A DNA stretch of 64,000 nucleotides from Dehalogenimonas formicexedens (GTDB taxonomy: Bacteria; Chloroflexota; Dehalococcoidia; Dehalococcoidales; Dehalococcoidaceae), in NCBI RefSeq assembly GCF_001953175.1, contig NZ_CP018258.1, positions 834,210 through 898,209 of the forward strand, read 5' to 3'. The notes under the pieces were generated by a model. That model searched no databases, had not been told where the DNA came from, and was given only the letters and a program-made list of their open reading frames with translations. This document shows, piece by piece, positions 39,426-49,816 of this stretch; within the stretch, counting starts at the first letter, position 1, and the number at the start of each line of letters is the position of its first letter. The position numbers and the translations under genes were made by a program.

Positions 39426-40343
39426 TTAGCGGGTCGGCATCGGGCGCAGACGCCCGGCGCCGATGAAGCGGTTGAATGTTGCCATCCGGTCTTCGATCTG
39501 TTTGGGATCCAGGCCAACGGAGGACAACGCGCCCATCATATCGACCATGGGATTCGCCCCGGCGCGAATAGGACCGAAGCAACCCCGACAAGGCATGTAA
39601 GCCTTAATGCATCGAGGTGTCTTTTCCGAACCACCGCAACCAGTGCGGGTGGCAGGCCCAAGGCAGAGGATACCCTGCTCATTCATGCAGCGCATATTAT
39701 CGTAGCGCCCCGGGGTAAATTCAGGAGCCTGCAGCGGTCGCCGAATGGCCACCTTGGCCTTTTTCTCGCGTACCGTAGGGCAATCATCGCAAACACTTCG
39801 CTCGGGCAGGCTGAAACTCTTGCCCTGAAGCAGCGCTGTCAAGGCGCCGGCGATCCATTCTGGCGTAGGCGGACAGCCCGGGATCGAGACGTCCACCTTG
39901 ATCACCTCATTCACCGAATAAACGCGGTCGGTTAGCGCCGGCAGACCCTGACTCGGGTTGTCGCCAGCTTCGGTGCTCGCGGTTTTACGGTAAGCAATGT
40001 CAAAAATATCGCCATTGTTGTACATGTTGCCCAAAGCCGGAATGCCGCCGAAGTTGGCGCAAGATCCCAGAGAGATGATGATTTTGCATTTCCGGCGCAT
40101 TTCCTCAGCCAGTTCTTTGTTTTCCTGGTTGCGGATACTGCCGGTGACAATGCCGACATCGGCCTCCGGTATTTCCATGTGCTTTTTTTCGCCGGTTTGA
40201 CCGAAAAGCTTGTGATCCATCAGTACCGGCATGTGGACGAACTCCAGGCTGGGCAGCAGATCCAGAAGTGGCTCGCCGATGTCCAGAATAGAGACCTCGC
40301 ACCCCCCGCACACCGCGAACCATTCTTCAGCTACACGTACCAT
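39426..40343 (-). CDS. mvhG: NiFe hydrogenase small subunit (MvhG/VhuG)
   Basis: A 305-residue electron-transfer subunit without a Tat signal. The proximal-cluster motif CGGCEVSILD is near residue 12, further ligands lie in SLGSCANFGG near 92 and GCPPTPEWI near 150, and Cys-rich motifs CDDCP, CLGPATRTGCGG and MPCRGCFGP near 185-255 hold additional Fe-S clusters. AAGGAGG precedes the ATG. It is encoded between the 61-residue protein and mvhA. Confidence 0.92.
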   Translation of the reverse strand: MVRVAEEWFAVCGGCEVSILDIGEPLLDLLPSLEFVHMPVLMDHKLFGQTGEKKHMEIPEADVGIVTGSIRNQENKELAEEMRRKCKIIISLGSCANFGGIPALGNMYNNGDIFDIAYRKTASTEAGDNPSQGLPALTDRVYSVNEVIKVDVSIPGCPPTPEWIAGALTALLQGKSFSLPERSVCDDCPTVREKKAKVAIRRPLQAPEFTPGRYDNMRCMNEQGILCLGPATRTGCGGSEKTPRCIKAYMPCRGCFGPIRAGANPMVDMMGALSSVGLDPKQIEDRMATFNRFIGAGRLRPMPTR

Positions 40344-40407
40344 GTCAGATCCTCCTTGTAATTTGCTTGACTTCCGGTTGACCCCGCGACACGATCCCGA
40401 AATAGAT

Positions 40408-40593
40408 TTATCCCAGAGAGTTTAACACCACCCTGCGTGTATACAGATAATGCATGTCACCCTCGTTCAGCGATCTAACCTCAAAACCGAGTGACCTGTA
40501 ATGTTCTTCCTGTTCCCGGCTTTCGGTTGCGCTGTGATATTCCTTGCCGTCCCACATGAATTTCCTGCCATCGAAGAGGCGAGAGAGTTCCAT
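40408..40593 (-). CDS. 61-residue protein inside the Mvh-Hdr operon
   Basis: Not recognised. The short charged protein has a start similar to a domain that reads metadata-like motifs (KFMWDGKEYHSATESREQEEHYRSLG), with no cysteines and no membrane segment. A strong AAGGAGG lies four bases from the ATG, and it is tightly spaced (8 bases after mvhD, 64 before mvhG), so it is very likely translated. A role in complex assembly or regulation is only guessed from position. Confidence 0.7.
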   Translation of the reverse strand: MELSRLFDGRKFMWDGKEYHSATESREQEEHYRSLGFEVRSLNEGDMHYLYTRRVVLNSLG

Positions 40594-40601
40594 CGTCCTC
40601 C

Positions 40602-41054
40602 TTACATTTTGTACGGGCTTGGTCCCAGTCTTTTAAGGTCCGCTACCATATCGGTTACAACCTGCGCAAACCTCGCCCCTTCAGAAGCCGATACCCACTC
40701 CAACCTGTAACGTTCATCTTCCAGGCCGAAATCCTGGAGCATCAGCTTGATCGCTTCCGCGCGAGATTCTGCGCGCAGGTTGCCTTCCCGATAGTGGCAG
40801 TCGCCAGGGTGGCAGCCGCACATCAAAACGCCATCGGCGCCTTTAGTCAAAGCGTCTATAACCAGATTGGGATGGACCATGCCGGAGCACATGACCCGGA
40901 TTATTCGAACGTTCGGTGGATACTGGATGCGTGATACCCCGGCCAGGTCGGCGGCAGCATAGGAGCACCAGTTGCAGGCGAAACAAATAATGATGGGCTG
41001 ATACCCCTGATCCTGGGAGGCATCAACGTTATCGGTTACCGTCATGGAACTCAT
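40602..41054 (-). CDS. mvhD: Hydrogenase/heterodisulfide reductase linker subunit MvhD
   Basis: A 150-residue Fe-S protein that bridges hydrogenase and HdrA in Mvh-Hdr complexes. Cysteines lie in CFACNWCSYAAADLAG near 23-28, MCSGMV near 54 and MCGCHPGDCHY near 78, the usual 2Fe-2S ligand pattern of MvhD. GTAAAGGAAG precedes the ATG, and the gene lies 13 bases after hdrA. It supports electron delivery from H2 to the HdrA flavin. Confidence 0.93.
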   Translation of the reverse strand: MSSMTVTDNVDASQDQGYQPIIICFACNWCSYAAADLAGVSRIQYPPNVRIIRVMCSGMVHPNLVIDALTKGADGVLMCGCHPGDCHYREGNLRAESRAEAIKLMLQDFGLEDERYRLEWVSASEGARFAQVVTDMVADLKRLGPSPYKM

Positions 41055-41067
41055 CTTATGTCTTCCT

Positions 41068-44000
41068 TTACGCAGGGGTTAAAACCGCAGACACCATGTC
41101 TGATAGTTCTTCAAGGTTGAAATTCTTGACCATGATACCTTTCTTGGGACAGGTAGCCATGCACACCCCGCAACCCTGGCATTTAGCGGGATCGGATTCA
41201 GCTGTCTTTTTTACGGAGCCGTTCGACATGTATTCGATAAGAGTTATCGCTTTGAAAGGACACGGTTCGACGCAGTATGCGCAGCCGTCACAGTTATCAT
41301 CTAGAACCTCTGAGACACAGGCTTCAAGCTGGCGTTCGTCCTTCGAAAGAATAGCCGCGGCCTTTGCCGCCGCTGCCCCAGCTTGAGCGATAGACTCATC
41401 GGCTAGTTTGGGACCATGCGCCAATCCAGCGAGAAACACCCCTTCAACCGGCGAGTCCACCGGACGTAACTTAATGTGAGCCTCCATAAGGAATCCATCT
41501 TCGGATTGCGGCAATTTCAACAATTTGGCGACATCCTGATCTTCCGAAGGGACCACACCGACAGAAAGAACCAACATGTCGGCCGTGACATTAAGCCGCG
41601 CCTTTAATATCGGATCAAACGTCGAAACCTTTAATACACCGGCTTCCATCTTAACAACCGGTTTTTCAAACTGCTCATATCTGAGAAAGCGAATGCCCAA
41701 TTTGCGCGCCCTGGTGTATTCCGCCTCATGCAGGCTATAGGAGCGAATATCCCGATAGAGGATGAATACTTCTGTTTCGGGTTGGCGGGCTTTAATTTTG
41801 ATGGCGTTTTTGATTGCCTGAATACAGCACAAACGGCTGCAATACTGTCGTTTCTCATCCCTGGAGCCAACACATTGGACCATAACCACGGTTTTGGCTT
41901 CGATTTTTTCGGTTGAAAGCCGTTCTTCCAGTTCGAGCTGGGTTAACACCCTCGGGTCTTTGCCGTAAAGGTATTCGGTTGGCTGATACTCCGAGGCTCC
42001 TGTCGCGACGATAACCGCTCCGGCTTTTACTTGCCGCTGTTGACCATCCAGTTCGAAACCGATCAGGAAATTACCAGCGGCGCCTTCGAATGCATTGAAA
42101 CTGGCTTCAAGAAAATATTCGACGTTGGGATGGATCTTGATCCGTTCGATCATTTCATGAAGCTTAGCCTGGGGTTCCTCACCCGGCTCCCCGAATTTTA
42201 CCCGCTTAAAATTCCCCCCAAGTTCTCTTGATTTCTCGAATAGATACGTTTTATAGCCTGAATCAGCCAGCGTTAAAGCCGCGGTCATCCCGGCTAACCC
42301 GCCGCCGATAACAACTCCTTCGTGACTGACCGGGACTTGACCAGGACGTAAAGGCTTAAGATGATTAACCTTCACCGCAGCCAACCGGACGATATCTTTA
42401 GCCTTGTAAGTGGCCTCGGCTGGCTGGTGCATGTGTACCCAGGAGCACTGGTTCCTGATATTAGCCATTTCCAGGAGATATGGGTTAAGACCGGCTTCCC
42501 GCAAGGTATCCTGAAATAAACCCTCGTGGGTTCGAGGGGTACAGGCGGCCACGATCACCCGATTGAGCCCATGTTCAATAATGGATTGTTTGATCTTCTC
42601 GCCGGCGTCGGTCGAACAGGCAAAAAGTGTGTCATCGACAAAAGTGACATTCGGCAATGTCCGGGCGTAATCGACCAGGTCAGGGATATTTACTACTGAA
42701 GAGATGTTCTTACCGCAATGGCAGACAAAAACACCCAGGCGCGGCTCGGAACCATCGACCACCCGTTCCTCGGGATATATTCTCTGTTGAATAAGTTCGT
42801 TTTTCTTCTCAGCAAGGAGAGCCATCACCCTGGAAGCCGCAGCCCCCGCCTGAATTACGGTCTCAGGAATGTCCTTTGGTCCGGTGAACGCACCAACGGC
42901 GAAAACTCCTTCCTGACTGGTAGCAACCGGATCCAAACCGTCAGTGAGACAGAACCCATTACTATCGAGCTTGATACCGAATCTGTCAGCTAACGTTTGG
43001 CTGCCTTTGGACGGCCGAAGGCCGCATGACAGCATGACAAGATCGAACTTTTCCTCTTCTATCTTACCCTGCTCGTCCTGATGCCTGACGATTATTTCTT
43101 TACTGGCGGGAATCTGTTTCAATGAGGATGGCTGGCAGCGGATATAACGCACTCCGGCCTTTTTTGCTCTTTCGTAATAACTTTCAAAGCCTTTACCGTA
43201 GGCTCTCAGGTCGATGTAGAAAATAGCGACGTCAATCTCCGGATGGTGTTCCTTAAGAATCAACGCTTCCTTGGTTGCGTACATACAACATACCGCGGAA
43301 CAGAAATCAGCCGATGTCTCCCGAGAGCCGACACATTGGATAAACGCCACTTTTTGAGGCAGTTCTCCATTGGACGGGCGAACCACCTTTCCGGCAAAAG
43401 GCCCTGAAGCTGCGAGCATTCTTTCGAATTGGAGGCTCGTCAGGACGTCCGGATACCGGCCAAAACCGAGTTGGGGTTTTTCTGCCGCATCGAAAAGGTC
43501 ATAGCCAGGCGCCAGCACCACGGCGCCGACATTGATTTCGACAGTTTCATCCTGCTGGTCGAGAAGGATAGCCCCCGCCTCACAAAATTTCTCGCAAGCC
43601 TTGCACCCTTTGCCTTTCTTGAAATAGATGCAATTGTCCTTATCAATCACCGGTACGTTGGGTACCGCCTGGGCAAAGGGAGTATATATGGCTTTACGCT
43701 TGGCAAGCCCATGCTCAAATTCACTGGTAGTTTTGGCCGGACACTTCTCCACACAAACATTGCATCCAGTGCATTTTGAAAGATCGACGAAGCGAGCTTT
43801 TTTTAGTACGTTGACCCTGAAATTACCCGCTTCACCTTCGCAGCTGATGACTCGGGAGTTCGTTAGCAGTTCTATGTTCAGATGACGGTCTATGGAGACA
43901 AGCCGCGGTGAAACCGTGCACATGGCGCAGTCATTGGTAGGAAAGGTTTTATCCAGCTGCACCATCTTGCCGCCGATGGCGGGAGCTTCATCCAGCAGAT

Positions 44001-44097
44001 ATACCTTAATGCCGGCTTCTGCCAGATCAAGAGCTGCCTGCATGCCGCCGACTCCGCCCCCAACGACTAAAGCTGCGCCAATTTTTGTCTTGCTCAA
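41068..44097 (-). CDS. hdrA: Double-length HdrA (two HdrA flavin modules)
   Basis: A 1009-residue flavoprotein made of two HdrA-like halves. The first FAD site VVGGGVGGMQAALDLAE is near 12, with cluster cysteines in TNDCAMC near 55 and a CTGCNVCVEKCP motif near 108. A second HdrA start (GVFVCHCGKNISSVV) appears near 455, and a second FAD site VIGGGLAGMTAALTLAD near 600 lacks the equivalent cysteine pair. Two terminal 4Fe-4S motifs (CDGCAYCVEPCP, CQGCGVCMATCP) follow. It is the likely bifurcating flavin subunit. TTG start three bases after hdrB. Confidence 0.92.
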   Translation of the reverse strand: MSKTKIGAALVVGGGVGGMQAALDLAEAGIKVYLLDEAPAIGGKMVQLDKTFPTNDCAMCTVSPRLVSIDRHLNIELLTNSRVISCEGEAGNFRVNVLKKARFVDLSKCTGCNVCVEKCPAKTTSEFEHGLAKRKAIYTPFAQAVPNVPVIDKDNCIYFKKGKGCKACEKFCEAGAILLDQQDETVEINVGAVVLAPGYDLFDAAEKPQLGFGRYPDVLTSLQFERMLAASGPFAGKVVRPSNGELPQKVAFIQCVGSRETSADFCSAVCCMYATKEALILKEHHPEIDVAIFYIDLRAYGKGFESYYERAKKAGVRYIRCQPSSLKQIPASKEIIVRHQDEQGKIEEEKFDLVMLSCGLRPSKGSQTLADRFGIKLDSNGFCLTDGLDPVATSQEGVFAVGAFTGPKDIPETVIQAGAAASRVMALLAEKKNELIQQRIYPEERVVDGSEPRLGVFVCHCGKNISSVVNIPDLVDYARTLPNVTFVDDTLFACSTDAGEKIKQSIIEHGLNRVIVAACTPRTHEGLFQDTLREAGLNPYLLEMANIRNQCSWVHMHQPAEATYKAKDIVRLAAVKVNHLKPLRPGQVPVSHEGVVIGGGLAGMTAALTLADSGYKTYLFEKSRELGGNFKRVKFGEPGEEPQAKLHEMIERIKIHPNVEYFLEASFNAFEGAAGNFLIGFELDGQQRQVKAGAVIVATGASEYQPTEYLYGKDPRVLTQLELEERLSTEKIEAKTVVMVQCVGSRDEKRQYCSRLCCIQAIKNAIKIKARQPETEVFILYRDIRSYSLHEAEYTRARKLGIRFLRYEQFEKPVVKMEAGVLKVSTFDPILKARLNVTADMLVLSVGVVPSEDQDVAKLLKLPQSEDGFLMEAHIKLRPVDSPVEGVFLAGLAHGPKLADESIAQAGAAAAKAAAILSKDERQLEACVSEVLDDNCDGCAYCVEPCPFKAITLIEYMSNGSVKKTAESDPAKCQGCGVCMATCPKKGIMVKNFNLEELSDMVSAVLTPA

Positions 44098-44099
44098 CT

Positions 44100-44963
44100 C
44101 TAAACCTTCACCAGCAGTTTTTCACCCTCGACGAAATGTTTGTTCAGCATTAATTCACTCTCGGGGACGCCGAGCGCCAACGACAAAAGCTCACTAAAAT
44201 AAAAGATCGGAACATGGTAGTTTCCACCAAGTCTATTGAGGTCATCCTGCCGCACGTCCAGGTTGAGTTGACAGAAGCTGCAAGGAACCGAGATCGCCGT
44301 GGCTCCACAAGCGCAGGCGTCATCGATAATTTTAGTCGTGAGCTTTAATACGACATCGGGTCGTGTAAGAGATAACGAACCGCCGCAACAGTCAACCTTG
44401 TGAGACCAATCAGTCGTTTTAATGCCTACGGCGTTCAGTATCCTATCCATAGACATCGGATATTCAGGATCATCTCTGAAGCCTGTTTCTTTATGTGGCC
44501 GGACAAGTAAACACCCGTAATATGAGGCCACGGTGAGATGCGAAAGGTCCCTTCGCACCTTTGACTTTAGCTTGGACAGATTTTCATCGGTAGATAATAT
44601 CTCGAGGGGGTGAAGCACAGAAACCGGCTTTTCGAATTTGTGATCAATGATCTTTTCGATCTCACGTTTCAGGCGGCTATCACCTTCGTCTTCGTACTGA
44701 GCAACCTTGAACCTGTTATAGCAGGCGGTACAGGGTACGATTATTTGGTCGGATCCCTGTTTTTGAACCTCGGCGAGGTTTTTTAATGGGAGAGTATCAG
44801 CCAACATTACTGAGGCGTTATGGGCTATGGTCGAACCACAGCATATCCAGTTTTTCAACTCCTCAGTTTCGATGCCGACGATTTCAAATAGCCGCAACAG
44901 GGACTGATAGTAGTCTTTGCCGCTAGCCCGGAGGGAACAGCTGTTAAATAAAGCGTATTTCAA
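44100..44963 (-). CDS. hdrB: Heterodisulfide-reductase-type subunit B
   Basis: A 287-residue protein with two CCG domains: WICCGSTIAHN then VPCTACYNRF, and YYGCLLVRP with VDCCGGSLSL then VPCSFCQLNLD. These bind the paired noncubane 4Fe-4S clusters of HdrB. The TTG start overlaps the hdrC stop (TTGA). In methanogens the substrate is CoM-S-S-CoB, which is not expected in this lineage, so the true disulfide or other acceptor is unknown. Confidence 0.92.
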   Translation of the reverse strand: MKYALFNSCSLRASGKDYYQSLLRLFEIVGIETEELKNWICCGSTIAHNASVMLADTLPLKNLAEVQKQGSDQIIVPCTACYNRFKVAQYEDEGDSRLKREIEKIIDHKFEKPVSVLHPLEILSTDENLSKLKSKVRRDLSHLTVASYYGCLLVRPHKETGFRDDPEYPMSMDRILNAVGIKTTDWSHKVDCCGGSLSLTRPDVVLKLTTKIIDDACACGATAISVPCSFCQLNLDVRQDDLNRLGGNYHVPIFYFSELLSLALGVPESELMLNKHFVEGEKLLVKV

Positions 44964-45550
44964 GATTGAGCCAGCTCCCGTTCTTTCTTAGCGACTTTTT
45001 TGAACAGTCGTTTCATTTCACGTGAATTCTGGAAATGGGGGAAAACTTCTAGTTTTCCTTTTTTGAGCATACGAATACCGAGCGCAGCGTCGCGACCAAG
45101 GTTTCCCGTTTTCAAGCTTAAAAGGCCAGCCACTCCGGTCTCGTACATCATTCCGAAGTTCTTGATAATAAATAAGCCTGACTTGTAAAAAGCCGCAATG
45201 TCAGGTTCTTTAGGTTGGATGCCTTCCCTGATTGCGATGTTAGCCAGTGCGTCCATGACCTTTAATAAACCGGTTTCCTGGGGGCAGCGCGCGGTACAGG
45301 TACCACAAGCAACGCACAACCAATAGGTATTTGTATTCAGCACCTCATCCTTGAGCCCGAGGCGAACAGCATGGATCACCTGGACCGGAGTCATATCCAT
45401 GAATTCAGTAAGAGGGCAACCGCTGGAGCATTTCCGGCACTGAAAACACATGTTGGCGTCGACCCCGTGAAGGGCCTTAATGCTTGAAGCAAATTCGCTT
45501 ATATGGCCCGGGATCAGGTTAAATTCGCGGGGATCCGCAGTTTGAGTCAT
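44960..45550 (-). CDS. hdrC: Heterodisulfide-reductase-type subunit C
   Basis: A 196-residue iron-sulfur protein with two 4Fe-4S motifs, CFQCRKCSSGCP (near 34) and CVACGTCTARCP (near 79), that carry electrons from HdrA to HdrB. The ATG at 45550 (MTQTADPREFNL) is preferred to the longer frame from 45622 because the longer leader reads through the promoter at 45593-45622. It heads the hdrCBA-mvhD-mvhG-mvhA operon. Confidence 0.9.
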   Translation of the reverse strand: MTQTADPREFNLIPGHISEFASSIKALHGVDANMCFQCRKCSSGCPLTEFMDMTPVQVIHAVRLGLKDEVLNTNTYWLCVACGTCTARCPQETGLLKVMDALANIAIREGIQPKEPDIAAFYKSGLFIIKNFGMMYETGVAGLLSLKTGNLGRDAALGIRMLKKGKLEVFPHFQNSREMKRLFKKVAKKERELAQS

Positions 45551-45592
45551 ACGTGTTAGCCTTAATATAGAGTCTAACCGCCAAGGCATAAT

Positions 45593-45622
45593 ATAGTATC
45601 TTAGGCCTAGTACCCGTGTCAA
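45593..45622 (-). promoter_or_regulatory. hdrC operon promoter, downstream
   Basis: On the minus strand TTGACA (45622-45617) and TACTAT (45598-45593) are 18 bases apart, about 43 bases before the hdrC ATG. Confidence 0.6.
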
Positions 45623-45717: not shown

Positions 45718-47100
45718 TCAGGAGACAGGTGGTTTAAGTTGTTTGATCATATATCCGGAACGAAATTCATAACCATGTTCCCTGTAATAATTGCGTGCTC
45801 CCACGCCCGATAATATGCCGATATATTCCATCCCAAATTCGTTTAGAGCTATTTTTTCAGCCACCTGGAGTAATTGTCTGCCTATACCCCTGTGCTGGGC
45901 GGAGTTGCGTCCTTTTTCTCCAAACTGGAGTTCAGGGCCGTAAACATGTAGTTCTCTCACGATCGCAATTCGTTCTGAGATGTGTTGAAGATTATCCGGC
46001 TCCTGATCTTGAATCCTGAGCCTGAGCAATCCGAACAAGGTGTCCGTTTCATCCTCAATCGAAAGAAATAGCTCTTTGCCCCCTGACGCTTCGTATTCGC
46101 GCCGCCGAAGCACCAGTTCGGTGAAATTCCTGGTCTTCCGGTGACCAAACTCGCGGCACCTGATACATTGGCAGTTGAGCCCCTGCGCCTGAAGTATGCT
46201 CTTTACCCCGTCCCTCAAAGAGTTCTTGAGCCCCCCGGTAATGTACTCAGAGGGAATGTCTCTTAGAACCCGTGAAATCCTGACATACGGTGGAACGTTT
46301 ATTTTCATCTCCGCGATCAGCTTGATCATTGTTTCGTCATTATAAGGTTCATACCGGTGTTCGCGCTGCCATTTTTCCAGTTCCGTATTTTCAATGACCA
46401 TAGTGGGATAGATTTTAATCCCGTCCGGCTGAAAATTGGGGTCATTAAAAAGGCGTTTGGTCATCGCCAGATCGTTTTCCGGCGTCGATCCGGGCAATCC
46501 CGGCATCCAGTGATAGTGCACTTTCAGACCCGCTCTTCTCAATCGAGCAGTGGCTCCAATCACGGCCGACACGTCGTGCCCACGGTTGATCAAGCGATAA
46601 ACGTTATCATCAAGGGTTTGAACCCCAAGTTCAACCCGAGTAGTACCCCATTTGATCATGCGCTCGATTTCGGCGTCACCGCAATAATCAGGCCTGGTCT
46701 CGATGCATAAGCCCACTGCCCTGTTAGCCGATAACTCGTTGGTTTTCTGAGCATCTTCCAAAGAAACGCCGGTAGAGCCATTCAAAGCGTCGAAACATGA
46801 TTTTATAAAACTGTTTTGGTAATCAACCGGAGTGGCTAAAAACGTGCCGCCCATCACGATCAACTCAACTTTATCTGTCGGGTGTCCCATGTCGGATAGA
46901 ATACGCAGCCGGGCCTTTACCTGGGCGCCCGGATCATAGTCGTATCTCACGGCGCGCATGACTGCCGGAGAGTGAGGCGTGTAACTGCGAGGTGTGTCCG
47001 AAAAGTCAGGGCAATAAACGCAGCGCCCCGGACATGGCGCGGGTCGACTCATGACCGCCACCGGGGTGACGCCTGAAATTGTCCGGGTCAGCTTTTTCAT
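45718..47100 (-). CDS. elp3: Elp3-type tRNA U34 carboxymethyltransferase
   Basis: A 460-residue enzyme with an N-terminal radical SAM domain (C23, C27, C30 in CPGRCVYC) and a C-terminal acetyltransferase domain (RGIGRQLLQVAEKIA near 400, YYREHGYEF near 440). Elp3 uses acetyl-CoA and SAM radicals to put a carboxymethyl group on U34 of tRNA anticodons. Length and domain order match bacterial Elp3. GGAG lies six bases before the ATG. It is divergent, with 43 bases between, from a Trm9-like methyltransferase that could act on its product. Confidence 0.93.
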   Translation of the reverse strand: MKKLTRTISGVTPVAVMSRPAPCPGRCVYCPDFSDTPRSYTPHSPAVMRAVRYDYDPGAQVKARLRILSDMGHPTDKVELIVMGGTFLATPVDYQNSFIKSCFDALNGSTGVSLEDAQKTNELSANRAVGLCIETRPDYCGDAEIERMIKWGTTRVELGVQTLDDNVYRLINRGHDVSAVIGATARLRRAGLKVHYHWMPGLPGSTPENDLAMTKRLFNDPNFQPDGIKIYPTMVIENTELEKWQREHRYEPYNDETMIKLIAEMKINVPPYVRISRVLRDIPSEYITGGLKNSLRDGVKSILQAQGLNCQCIRCREFGHRKTRNFTELVLRRREYEASGGKELFLSIEDETDTLFGLLRLRIQDQEPDNLQHISERIAIVRELHVYGPELQFGEKGRNSAQHRGIGRQLLQVAEKIALNEFGMEYIGILSGVGARNYYREHGYEFRSGYMIKQLKPPVS

Positions 47101-47143
47101 TTATACTCCATTATACAATAGGCGCCATTTCGAAGAAATATTT

Positions 47144-47800
47144 ATGTCAATTTACCAGACATCTCCCACCTTTGATCGTATCGCCGCGGGATGGTACGGG
47201 TTCAGACACCGGACGATCTTCAAAACAGAACTGGATTCACTCGCCCGCAGGTGGGAAAAGGGTAAATTATTGAACCTCGGTTGCGGGCACGGCGCTGATT
47301 TTCTACCTTTCAAGGATAGTTTCGATCTGACGGGCATCGATATTTCCTCTGAAATGCTCAAGTTCGCCGAAAAATTCATGCGGAAACATGGATTCCAAGC
47401 CGATCTGAAGCAGGCTGACATGAGATTGATACCCTACCGGGACGCCTCCTTCGATTTCGAATTGGCTGTGGCCAGCCTGCATCACATCGACGACAAACCA
47501 GGCAGAGAGAAAGCCGCCAGGGAAATGTTCCGAGTTCTGAAGCCCGGAGGCGAAGCATTCATTACCGTTTGGAATGCCTTTCAGCCCCGTTTCATTTTCA
47601 GGAACCGCGATGTTCACATCCCGTGGCGTGCCAAAGACGAAGTGATCGAACGTTTCTACCATCTATTTTCCTACAGAGAACTTGAGAAACTATTTGAATC
47701 CGCCGGTTTCAGGATTATCAGTTCTCGGCCTGAATCAACCTACCACCTGCCGGTAAAATATTTTTCCCGAAACATATGTCTGCTTGTCCAAAAACCCTAA
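47144..47800 (+). CDS. Class I SAM methyltransferase resembling Trm9/ALKBH8 tRNA methyltransferases
   Basis: A 218-residue Rossmann methyltransferase. SAM motif I is LNLGCGHGADFLPF near 44, the acidic loop TGIDISSEML follows near 66, and motif IV SFDFELAVASLHHIDD near 110. The post-core region VHIPWRAKDEVIERFYHLFSY resembles the PW...RYYHLF element of Trm9-type enzymes that methylate carboxymethyl-U34 in tRNA. Adjacent elp3 makes that very substrate. A generic UbiE/small-molecule methyltransferase remains possible. ATG 47144 is preferred to a longer frame overlapping elp3. Confidence 0.8.
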   Translation: MSIYQTSPTFDRIAAGWYGFRHRTIFKTELDSLARRWEKGKLLNLGCGHGADFLPFKDSFDLTGIDISSEMLKFAEKFMRKHGFQADLKQADMRLIPYRDASFDFELAVASLHHIDDKPGREKAAREMFRVLKPGGEAFITVWNAFQPRFIFRNRDVHIPWRAKDEVIERFYHLFSYRELEKLFESAGFRIISSRPESTYHLPVKYFSRNICLLVQKP

Positions 47801-47885: not shown

Positions 47886-48104
47886 ATGCTGGTCAACATT
47901 ACGTGCCCAAAGTGCAATACGAGCGGCGGTTTTTCTATAACCGATGCTTATTACATTGGCCCTTACAAGTGCTGGAAATGCCGTGCAGTTTTAAAGATAA
48001 ATCTTGAGAACAACCGATTGGTAAGCTGCGAAGCGATGGATGACGCAGAACTGGCCCGCTTTGAACAAGAGCAGGAAGCCAAGAAGCGCTCCCGCGGCCG
48101 GTAA
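47886..48104 (+). CDS. Small zinc-ribbon protein
   Basis: A 72-residue protein with two Cys pairs, CPKCNT at 8-11 and CWKC near 29-32, forming a probable zinc ribbon, followed by a charged, helical C-terminal tail ending KKRSRGR. AAAGGAG precedes the ATG. Its role is unknown; such ribbons often bind nucleic acid or act as assembly adaptors. Confidence 0.7.
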   Translation: MLVNITCPKCNTSGGFSITDAYYIGPYKCWKCRAVLKINLENNRLVSCEAMDDAELARFEQEQEAKKRSRGR

Positions 48105-48445: not shown

Positions 48446-48643
48446 ATGCCTGTTATCACCGTAGAGATGCATGAAGGCCGATCCATTGCCCAGAAGAAGC
48501 AACTGGTTGAGGGCATCACCAACGAGTTCGTTAAAATAGGTACTCCCGCCGAAAAGGTCACGATCATATTCCGCGATGTCGCCAAAACCAACTGGGCTTC
48601 CGGGGGTAAATTAAGCTCGGAATCAGCCGCGCGGCCCCTTTAA
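48446..48643 (+). CDS. 4-oxalocrotonate tautomerase family protein
   Basis: A 65-residue tautomerase-fold protein with the catalytic N-terminal proline (MPVITVEM) and the family pattern GRSIAQKKQLVEGITNEF, then EKVTIIFRDVAKTNWASGG. Related enzymes act on enol/keto acids as hexamers; no aromatic-degradation genes are near, so the substrate is unknown. AAGGAGG lies inside the end of the preceding gene. Confidence 0.88.
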   Translation: MPVITVEMHEGRSIAQKKQLVEGITNEFVKIGTPAEKVTIIFRDVAKTNWASGGKLSSESAARPL

Positions 48644-49251
48644 AGGCCAAATTTCAGGCTGTTTCTCCACTCTTCAAATTTAGCGACACATTGGCTTGAA
48701 TCAGCGTCATCCAGGGTCATGATGAGCGCGTCTTCCCGATTATCGGTATAGTAAGCCCGGCGCACGCCTTTGCCGATAAACCCATATTGCAGATAGAGGC
48801 GTTGCGCCTCATAGTTAGAAACCCGAACTTCGAGAGTCACAATCTCAGCCTCGATTTTAACTGCCGCCCTGACCAGTTCGACAAGCAGCAGTTTACCGAA
48901 CCCGCGACGTCTGAACTCCTTTTTAACGGCCAGGCTTATGATGTGAGCCTCGCCGGCCATCATCCAAAACCCGGCGAAACCGACGATTTTCTGAGGAGGC
49001 TCCGGGCCGGCTTTGTGCGGTGTCAGCCATTCTACAACTTTGTGGGCAAGCCCGGTATTGGCTTCGATTTTAGTTGTTGGGGGTTCACTTGTTTTATCAG
49101 ATTCTTCGGCGACGACGATGTAATGGGCCAGATGGTTCTCCAACTCGCGCTGGTAGTTCATCGGCGGCCACATGGTGGGAAAGGCCTCACGATCTATGGC
49201 GGTTACCTGGGGAACGTCTTCCTGGGTCATTGGACGCACGATGTACTGCAT
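48640..49251 (-). CDS. rimI: RimI-like GNAT N-acetyltransferase
   Basis: A 203-residue acetyltransferase with the acetyl-CoA loop KKEFRRRGFGKLLLVELVRAA near 117 and RLYLQYGFIGKGVRRAYY near 155, the pattern of ribosomal-protein alanine acetyltransferase RimI. An insert of about 40 charged residues (near 50-90) between the first strands is longer than in standard RimI. It converges with the tautomerase gene (4-base overlap) and lies one base after queH, in the same direction. Confidence 0.82.
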   Translation of the reverse strand: MQYIVRPMTQEDVPQVTAIDREAFPTMWPPMNYQRELENHLAHYIVVAEESDKTSEPPTTKIEANTGLAHKVVEWLTPHKAGPEPPQKIVGFAGFWMMAGEAHIISLAVKKEFRRRGFGKLLLVELVRAAVKIEAEIVTLEVRVSNYEAQRLYLQYGFIGKGVRRAYYTDNREDALIMTLDDADSSQCVAKFEEWRNSLKFGL

Positions 49252-49252
49252 A

Positions 49253-49816
49253 TCAGACCTCTATCCCCTTTGGAGTCGTCGATTCATCCCGATATCTTTC
49301 CCATTCGCTATAAAGGCAACCGCAATACTGCTGCCGATACAGATCCAGCGGTTTGGTCAGGCGGCGGCTATCAGAATATCGTTTCCTCAGGTCAGCGTAC
49401 TCAAACACAACCCCCGAGATTAGCTCCACCGACCGGGCGATTTCGATAATCTGATCGTGCTTCTGTTGAGGGCTGATCAAAAGGCTGCTGGTGAAAGCGT
49501 CGAAACCGTGTTCAGCAGCGTAAGAAGCGACTTTACCAAGGCGCAGACGGTAGCATTCCCGGCAGCGGTTCTCATTTTTACCGGCGGCAGCCACAAAGTA
49601 CTTGTCCAGGTCATACCCCGGCTCTAGTTCGACCGAAATGCCCTCCCTGGCGACCAGGGATTTTAGCGCCTCCAGACGCCGCTGATGTTCAAGGAACGGA
49701 TGGATGTTGGGGTTATACCAGAAGGCGGTGACCCCAAAGCCCTGTTCCCGCCAGTAGTTAAGGGTATAGGCCGAACAGTGCACGCAGCAGCAATGGACCA
49801 GAAGTTTGGGTGTCAC
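49253..49816 (-). CDS. queH: Epoxyqueuosine reductase QueH
   Basis: A 187-residue Fe-S enzyme of the former DUF208 family that reduces epoxyqueuosine to queuosine in tRNA. Diagnostic cysteines are HCCCVHC near residues 8-14 and CRECYRLRLGK near 90, with a late QQYCGCLYSEWER near 165. The GTG start overlaps an upstream 83-codon frame (GTGA). With elp3 and the Trm9-like gene it makes this stretch rich in wobble-base modification genes. Confidence 0.92.
   Translation of the reverse strand: MTPKLLVHCCCVHCSAYTLNYWREQGFGVTAFWYNPNIHPFLEHQRRLEALKSLVAREGISVELEPGYDLDKYFVAAAGKNENRCRECYRLRLGKVASYAAEHGFDAFTSSLLISPQQKHDQIIEIARSVELISGVVFEYADLRKRYSDSRRLTKPLDLYRQQYCGCLYSEWERYRDESTTPKGIEV

Follow-up and report, generated by a model that had tools for sequence, protein, structure and literature searches.

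Elp3 is a tRNA-modifying enzyme that is rare among bacteria. In Dehalogenimonas formicexedens its gene stands head to head with a gene for a SAM-dependent methyltransferase (MT), and the question raised by this locus is whether the second enzyme acts on the product of the first, in the manner of Trm9, which completes this modification in yeast and archaea, to give the wobble ester mcm5U34. The window analysed here is a stretch of 64,000 nucleotides (positions 834210-898209 of the 2.09-Mb genome). An initial annotation had described elp3 as divergent from a Trm9-like methyltransferase gene across a shared region of 43 bp, and this arrangement was borne out by the coordinates of the two genes (Table 1).

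Table 1. Features of the elp3/methyltransferase locus, in window coordinates
Feature	Position	Strand	Description
elp3	45718-47100	minus	460 aa; radical SAM and GNAT (KAT) domains; predicted tRNA U34 5-carboxymethylation
Divergent intergenic region	47101-47143	.	43 bp, from sequence
Trm9-like class I SAM methyltransferase (MT)	47144-47800	plus	218 aa, ATG at 47144; predicted to convert cm5U34 to mcm5U34
SAM-binding motif LLNLGCGH	47267-47290	plus	MT residues 42-49; Pfam methyltransferase domain from residue 43
Lid hairpin	47609-47662	plus	MT residues 156-173, with W161, R170 and Y172; model strands 156-163 and 166-173
Zinc-ribbon protein gene	47886-48104	plus	72 aa, after MT; recurs beside the MT in some members of the group

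The identity of the first gene as elp3 is certain. Its product scores 568.4 bits against the NCBIfam model TIGR01211 (cut-off 350), contains the Pfam domains Radical_SAM, Radical_SAM_C and Acetyltransf_1, and carries the CxxxCxxC motif as CPGRCVYC in the translation. The nearest solved structure is that of Dehalococcoides mccartyi Elp3 (5l7j, E 4.7e-193), an enzyme already described together with its structure in the excerpted text of PMC6367351. In a Dehalococcoides-like genome (G007), Elp3 was found to be nearly identical to the crystallised protein (985 bits) and the MT lies 44 nt away. The formation of cm5U34 on tRNA by the present enzyme is predicted from relatives, for which cm5U is given as the product in the excerpts of PMC13315578.

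The longest listed open reading frame of the MT begins at 47051. This start was rejected in favour of 47144, since the longer frame would run into elp3 and the family alignment places the starts of relatives close to 47144. The start signals of both genes are probably located in the 43-bp gap; one weak sigma-70-like match was observed at 47079-47107 (plus strand). We noticed that 37 of 51 elp3/MT gaps of relatives (for example L038, L049 and L051) carry the motif AGTBTANCA on the MT strand and none carries it on the opposite strand, with 0.3 expected from shuffles; the 43-bp gap of the window lacks it. On the elp3 strand the motif becomes TGNTAVACT, which resembles an extended -10 element and probably represents the elp3 promoter. 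Elsewhere around the pair, open reading frames of other translation-related genes were read from their translations at 48640-49816 (minus strand), and we take these to encode a QueH-type protein and an acetyltransferase of RimI type. Downstream of elp3 (39426-45622, minus strand) lie iron-sulfur genes, likewise read from translations, that are presumably heterodisulfide-reductase- and hydrogenase-like.

The MT itself matches generic methyltransferase families only in Pfam (Methyltransf_11, 75.7 bits), and no NCBIfam model was above its cut-off among the best 25 of 27 matches. A family profile was built from 45 members drawn from 53 loci with MT, and against the whole PDB this profile ranked Yarrowia Trm9 (5cm2) first with an E-value of 1.9e-21. 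When the single MT sequence was used, 5cm2 came fourth but was the sole one of the best five to be aligned through the C-terminus. A profile of this C-terminal lid region alone (32 members) recovered 5cm2 at E 5.4e-5, the next best match being at 0.65. Among individual proteins scored against the family profile, a Trm9-like protein from the haloarchaeon Natronorubrum reached 96.7 bits and Yarrowia Trm9 79.7, followed by a Nonomuraea methyltransferase at 64.5, with its match confined to the core, the best paralogue of the genome itself at 51.3, and the E. coli enzymes UbiE (28.7), BioC (21.9) and CmoM (12.2). By profile score the MT does not group with UbiE-type enzymes, one of the groups that the initial annotation had named for comparison. 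With the lid profile the two Trm9s scored 25.5 and 23.3, and all 14 own paralogues and five E. coli enzymes were below 5 or unreported.

The relationship was also recovered in the reverse direction. With the Yarrowia Trm9 fragment as query against 119 genomes of the class (Dehalococcoidia, phylum Chloroflexota), the best 19 matches all belonged to the MT family (E 5e-17 to 1.6e-8), and below them were generic methyltransferases with coverage mostly of the core; in the D. formicexedens genome the MT was found at E 8e-13 and the next match at 4.9e-4. The Natronorubrum protein is encoded on a plasmid and shares 28% identity with the MT; 5cm2 leads its own PDB matches with an E-value eight orders of magnitude ahead of the next.

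The SAM motif and the PW...RFYHLF segment that the initial annotation had likened to Trm9 are both present, and the segment DVHIPW...ERFYHLF aligns with DVMVPW...YRYYHLY of Yarrowia Trm9. Five residues of the MT family were observed to be highly conserved, namely R21 (44/45), H114 (45/45), R170 (45/45), Y172 (43/45, the remaining two members having valine) and N210 (45/45). The succession TR, HH, RYY and DN is also seen in Yarrowia Trm9, and none of the 14 own paralogues has R21, H114, R170 and Y172 together. In yeast Trm9, the mutants R29A, H115A, R241A, Y243A and N271A are reported to lose tRNA affinity and activity, and a two-stranded lid is described for the enzyme, both in the excerpted text of PMC5372719. 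We infer that R21, H114, R170, Y172 and N210 of the MT correspond to these yeast residues, an indirect mapping by way of the Yarrowia and Natronorubrum alignments. N210 pairs with the archaeal asparagine in one alignment and not in that used for the conservation counts.

The class I SAM methyltransferase fold of Trm9 was found by Pfam, by modelling and by structure comparison. The AlphaFold model has a pLDDT of 92.2 with the lid included, and in this model a two-stranded lid with the PW...R-[YF]-Y motif lies over the active site. Superposition on 5cm2 gave an rmsd of 1.8 A over 171 residues, the lowest among the 50 matches listed, and a sequence identity of 26%, the joint highest among them. 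The Z score of 21.4 is level with those of many unrelated class I methyltransferases; 5cm2 ranks 19th by Z and fourth by Foldseek E.

The phylogeny lacks the support needed to establish a Trm9 clade. In a tree of 37 rows, Trm9 and the MT family were placed apart, weakly, and a joint clade was not rejected (AU 0.149). A PDB fragment (2p8j) was attached inside the MT family in this tree, which was rebuilt without PDB fragments on a new alignment. The resulting 23-row tree, from the more careful alignment and reduced from 20 to 13 family rows and from ten to eight own paralogues, placed Trm9 and the MT family on one side against the eight own paralogues with support of 68/73 only. Own paralogues L145, L148, L149 and L150 were outside both trees, L142 and L151 were also outside the second, and the Trm9 references were one archaeal and one partial yeast sequence.

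We then consider how the two genes are distributed. Among 294 genomes of the class, Elp3 was above cut-off in 53, and two broken copies (G488 and G430) bring the number to 55. Strong MT matches (best E 5e-41 or lower) were found in 54, a count from which three weak matches of family f85 were excluded. The MT is present in 54 of the 55 Elp3 genomes, and all 54 MT genomes are Elp3 genomes, the three weak matches apart. In the sole Elp3 genome without an MT (G449), the start of elp3 is cut by a contig end (L053). The genome-wide linkage that the initial annotation had put forward as a check was clear, as elp3 and the MT are divergent on one contig in 54/54 genomes and within 500 nt of each other in 52. 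A larger collection of 133 MT loci overlaps the 54 genomes and is not independent of them; here elp3 was present in the stretch in 125 and divergent in 124 of these, with L104 having both genes on one strand. Eight loci showed no elp3 nearby: in three the sequence breaks off at the start of the MT, L030 has elp3 2 kb away, and L075, L076, L119 and L134 cover 1.6-4 kb around the MT in genomes that do encode Elp3. The divergent order is therefore strongly, not absolutely, conserved, and it is not due to chance. In 14 control genomes, Elp3 at E <1e-30 was found in the four archaea only. No MT relative was seen among 54 pattern stretches of viral contigs, and phage records gave merely three weak partial matches. 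Three records (L069, L073 and L100) are labelled Deltaproteobacteria; the Elp3 of the L069 genome shares its contig number and coordinates with G467, a genome of the window's order, and the label looks wrong.

A divergent pair of Elp3 and a methyltransferase was also observed at the scale of the phylum. Elp3 occurs in 45 of 251 phylum genomes, 24 of them outside the class, and the close MT of the first family was not found in genomes outside the class. In 19 of these 24, a diverged Trm9-like methyltransferase that scores 24-62 bits with the family profile lies 5' of elp3 in divergent orientation, sometimes close and sometimes up to about 1.9 kb away (L162 and L164). The other five (L160, L179, L180, L182 and L183) have no such gene within about 4 kb of elp3. 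This second family (A5) has the motifs FSATR, HHIPS and LLDWR...GLRYVH, in which all 19 members share T, R, HH, R and Y, and the position of Y172 is occupied mostly by valine or alanine. The two families align through the R-Y motif with an hhalign probability of 99.8. Against the PDB, the A5 profile ranked 5cm2 second behind 3sm3; the match to 5cm2 spans profile positions 25-227 and that to 3sm3 positions 40-169.

We next turn to other genes for U34 modification. MnmG is strong in 58 of the 294 class genomes and Elp3 occurs in 55, with no overlap; the exclusion follows clades, and the hypergeometric P of 1.3e-6 therefore overstates it. Neither protein was observed in 181 genomes, many of them incomplete and some more than 95% complete. 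In the D. formicexedens genome no MnmE above cut-off and no MnmG were found, and the thiolase MnmA is encoded (340.6 bits). A stand-alone Trm112 was not found in this genome, where the search gave just a 22.6-bit match inside an 811-aa frame; of 61 genomes from the order, 31 have one, and it was not found in eight other Elp3/MT genomes of the order that are more than 90% complete. As this partner was not found, we call the MT Trm9-like and do not place it in the Trm9-Trm112 holoenzyme family.

The gene downstream of the MT encodes a zinc-ribbon protein. It lies no more than 300 nt downstream of the MT in 35 of the 133 loci, and a further 17 have it at another place in the stretch. By genome it was found in 26 of the 55 with Elp3 and in eight of the 239 class genomes without Elp3, and hence it is not a fixed part of the pair. 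An identification as Trm112 was rejected: no Trm112p match was obtained, Pfam gave weak mixed ribbons only, a PDB profile search returned nothing under E 0.07, and the best fold match was a weak one to LysW (E 0.79). A role as a Trm112-like partner is conceivable but unsupported.

With the exception of the trees, all the computed evidence speaks for a Trm9-like carboxyl methyltransferase that follows Elp3 in the pathway. We favour this reading because Trm9 is the best PDB match, the lid and the putative tRNA-binding residues are shared, the gene is linked to elp3, MnmE and MnmG are missing and MnmA is present. What the initial annotation had proposed for the MT is thus supported in part, by profile, lid, residues and linkage, and is held back by the missing Trm112 and by the tree statistics. 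In the predicted pathway, Elp3 would use acetyl-CoA and radical SAM chemistry to place a carboxymethyl group on U34, as is established in relatives. The MT would bind the anticodon loop with the cm5U34 carboxylate under the two-stranded lid, near the conserved Arg, His, Arg, Tyr and Asn residues, and would move a methyl group from SAM onto it to give the ester mcm5U34. MnmA would add the 2-thio group on the Lys, Glu and Gln tRNAs to yield mcm5s2U34. The pathway, seemingly independent of Trm112, would substitute for MnmE-MnmG, and we assign a probability of roughly 0.78 to this sequence-based reading as a whole.

Other roles for the MT appear much less probable. It is unlikely that the enzyme belongs to the Elp3 pathway but acts on a different group or at a different step, such as another wobble carboxylate, or depends for this on a further protein, for instance the zinc-ribbon one, with a product other than mcm5U. 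The missing Trm112 and the zinc-ribbon neighbour in part of the group would suit this alternative, and E. coli CmoM shows that bacteria do esterify another wobble carboxylate, that of cmo5U34 (PMC10516636, in the excerpted text). However, CmoM is far below both Trm9s in the family profile, and a CmoM homologue was rejected on whole-protein similarity and on the lack of a lid match; the MT is also paired with an enzyme that makes cm5U in relatives, again according to the excerpts of PMC13315578.

We give still less weight to a small-molecule methyltransferase, of quinones, lipids or similar compounds, whose gene would have no more than a promoter region in common with elp3. There are weak matches to UbiE-type NCBIfam models, but the 44.7 bits to TIGR01934 are far below the cut-off of 158.35, and a UbiE/MenG-type quinone enzyme was rejected on this score and for want of a lid match. 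The generic Pfam domain and a fold level with that of many small-molecule enzymes would agree with such a function, whereas the lid profile is specific to Trm9, the genes are divergent in every class genome with both, the MT without Elp3 amounts to three weak matches, and the divergent arrangement recurs with a diverged MT in other classes. Least probable of all is another RNA methyltransferase, for example a METTL6-like m3C enzyme, tied to Elp3 through shared control of tRNA modification. The Z scores of METTL6 structures are high (22.1 and 21.8), but their rmsd of 3.0-3.6 A and identity of 14-15% compare poorly with the values for Trm9, on which grounds a METTL6-like enzyme was rejected, and the 60 PDB sequence matches listed do not include METTL6.

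The Trm9-like reading can be extended beyond the class with somewhat less assurance. On balance we think it probable that Chloroflexota of at least two classes make mcm5(s2)U34 with a two-gene, Trm112-free cassette of Elp3 and a Trm9-like enzyme together with MnmA, replacing MnmE-MnmG, and that the head-to-head order is old enough for the MT to have diverged into two families. To our knowledge the mcm5U mark has been regarded as absent from bacteria, and the anaerobic bacteria with the Elp3/MT pair probably make it. The open-licence PMC literature searched gave no report of a bacterial Trm9-like gene or of mcm5U in these bacteria. In the excerpted text of one review, xcm5U34 derivatives are said to lack direct evidence in these bacteria (PMC7663514), and in that of a second, the Trm112-dependent methyltransferases are said to have no similar gene in bacteria (PMC5372719). 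The D. mccartyi Elp3 serves as a structural model for Elongator, and the MT is a candidate for the missing enzyme, with a predicted product. If this is true, mcm5U34 would be extended to the third domain of life and the locus would show that the central U34 pathway of bacteria has been exchanged in nature.

The closest known system is yeast Trm9 (the ALKBH8 methyltransferase domain in mammals), which uses Trm112. The fold, the two-stranded lid, the TR, HH, R-[YF]-Y and N positions and the link to Elp3 are common to both; the MT is shorter, with about 26% identity in the comparison with Trm9, has no stand-alone Trm112 in its genome and is partnered by a lone Elp3 instead of the six-subunit Elongator. 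A lone Elp3 with a Trm9 homologue, as here, is found in the archaea Haloferax and Sulfolobus solfataricus, and the Natronorubrum protein was the best-scoring relative compared with the MT family. The excerpted sources report mcm5U34 in Haloferax (PMC7663514), activation of Haloferax Trm9 by Trm112 (PMC8651126), and clustering of Elp3 and Trm9 homologues in S. solfataricus, with archaeal thiolation by Tuc1 in contrast to MnmA here (PMC2584109). Therefore, the two-gene pathway that the initial annotation had regarded as new is not entirely so, and as archaea have the same predicted pair it would be a new bacterial variant of a known pathway. E. coli CmoM, in which Arg26 pairs with the carboxylate (PMC10516636, excerpted text), likewise esterifies a wobble-uridine carboxylate, as predicted for the MT, but acts after CmoA/CmoB and not after Elp3. 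Finally, the bacterial cmnm5U34 pathway of MnmE-MnmG serves the same nucleotide and decoding role by different chemistry, and its MnmG was never observed together with Elp3 in the 294 class genomes.
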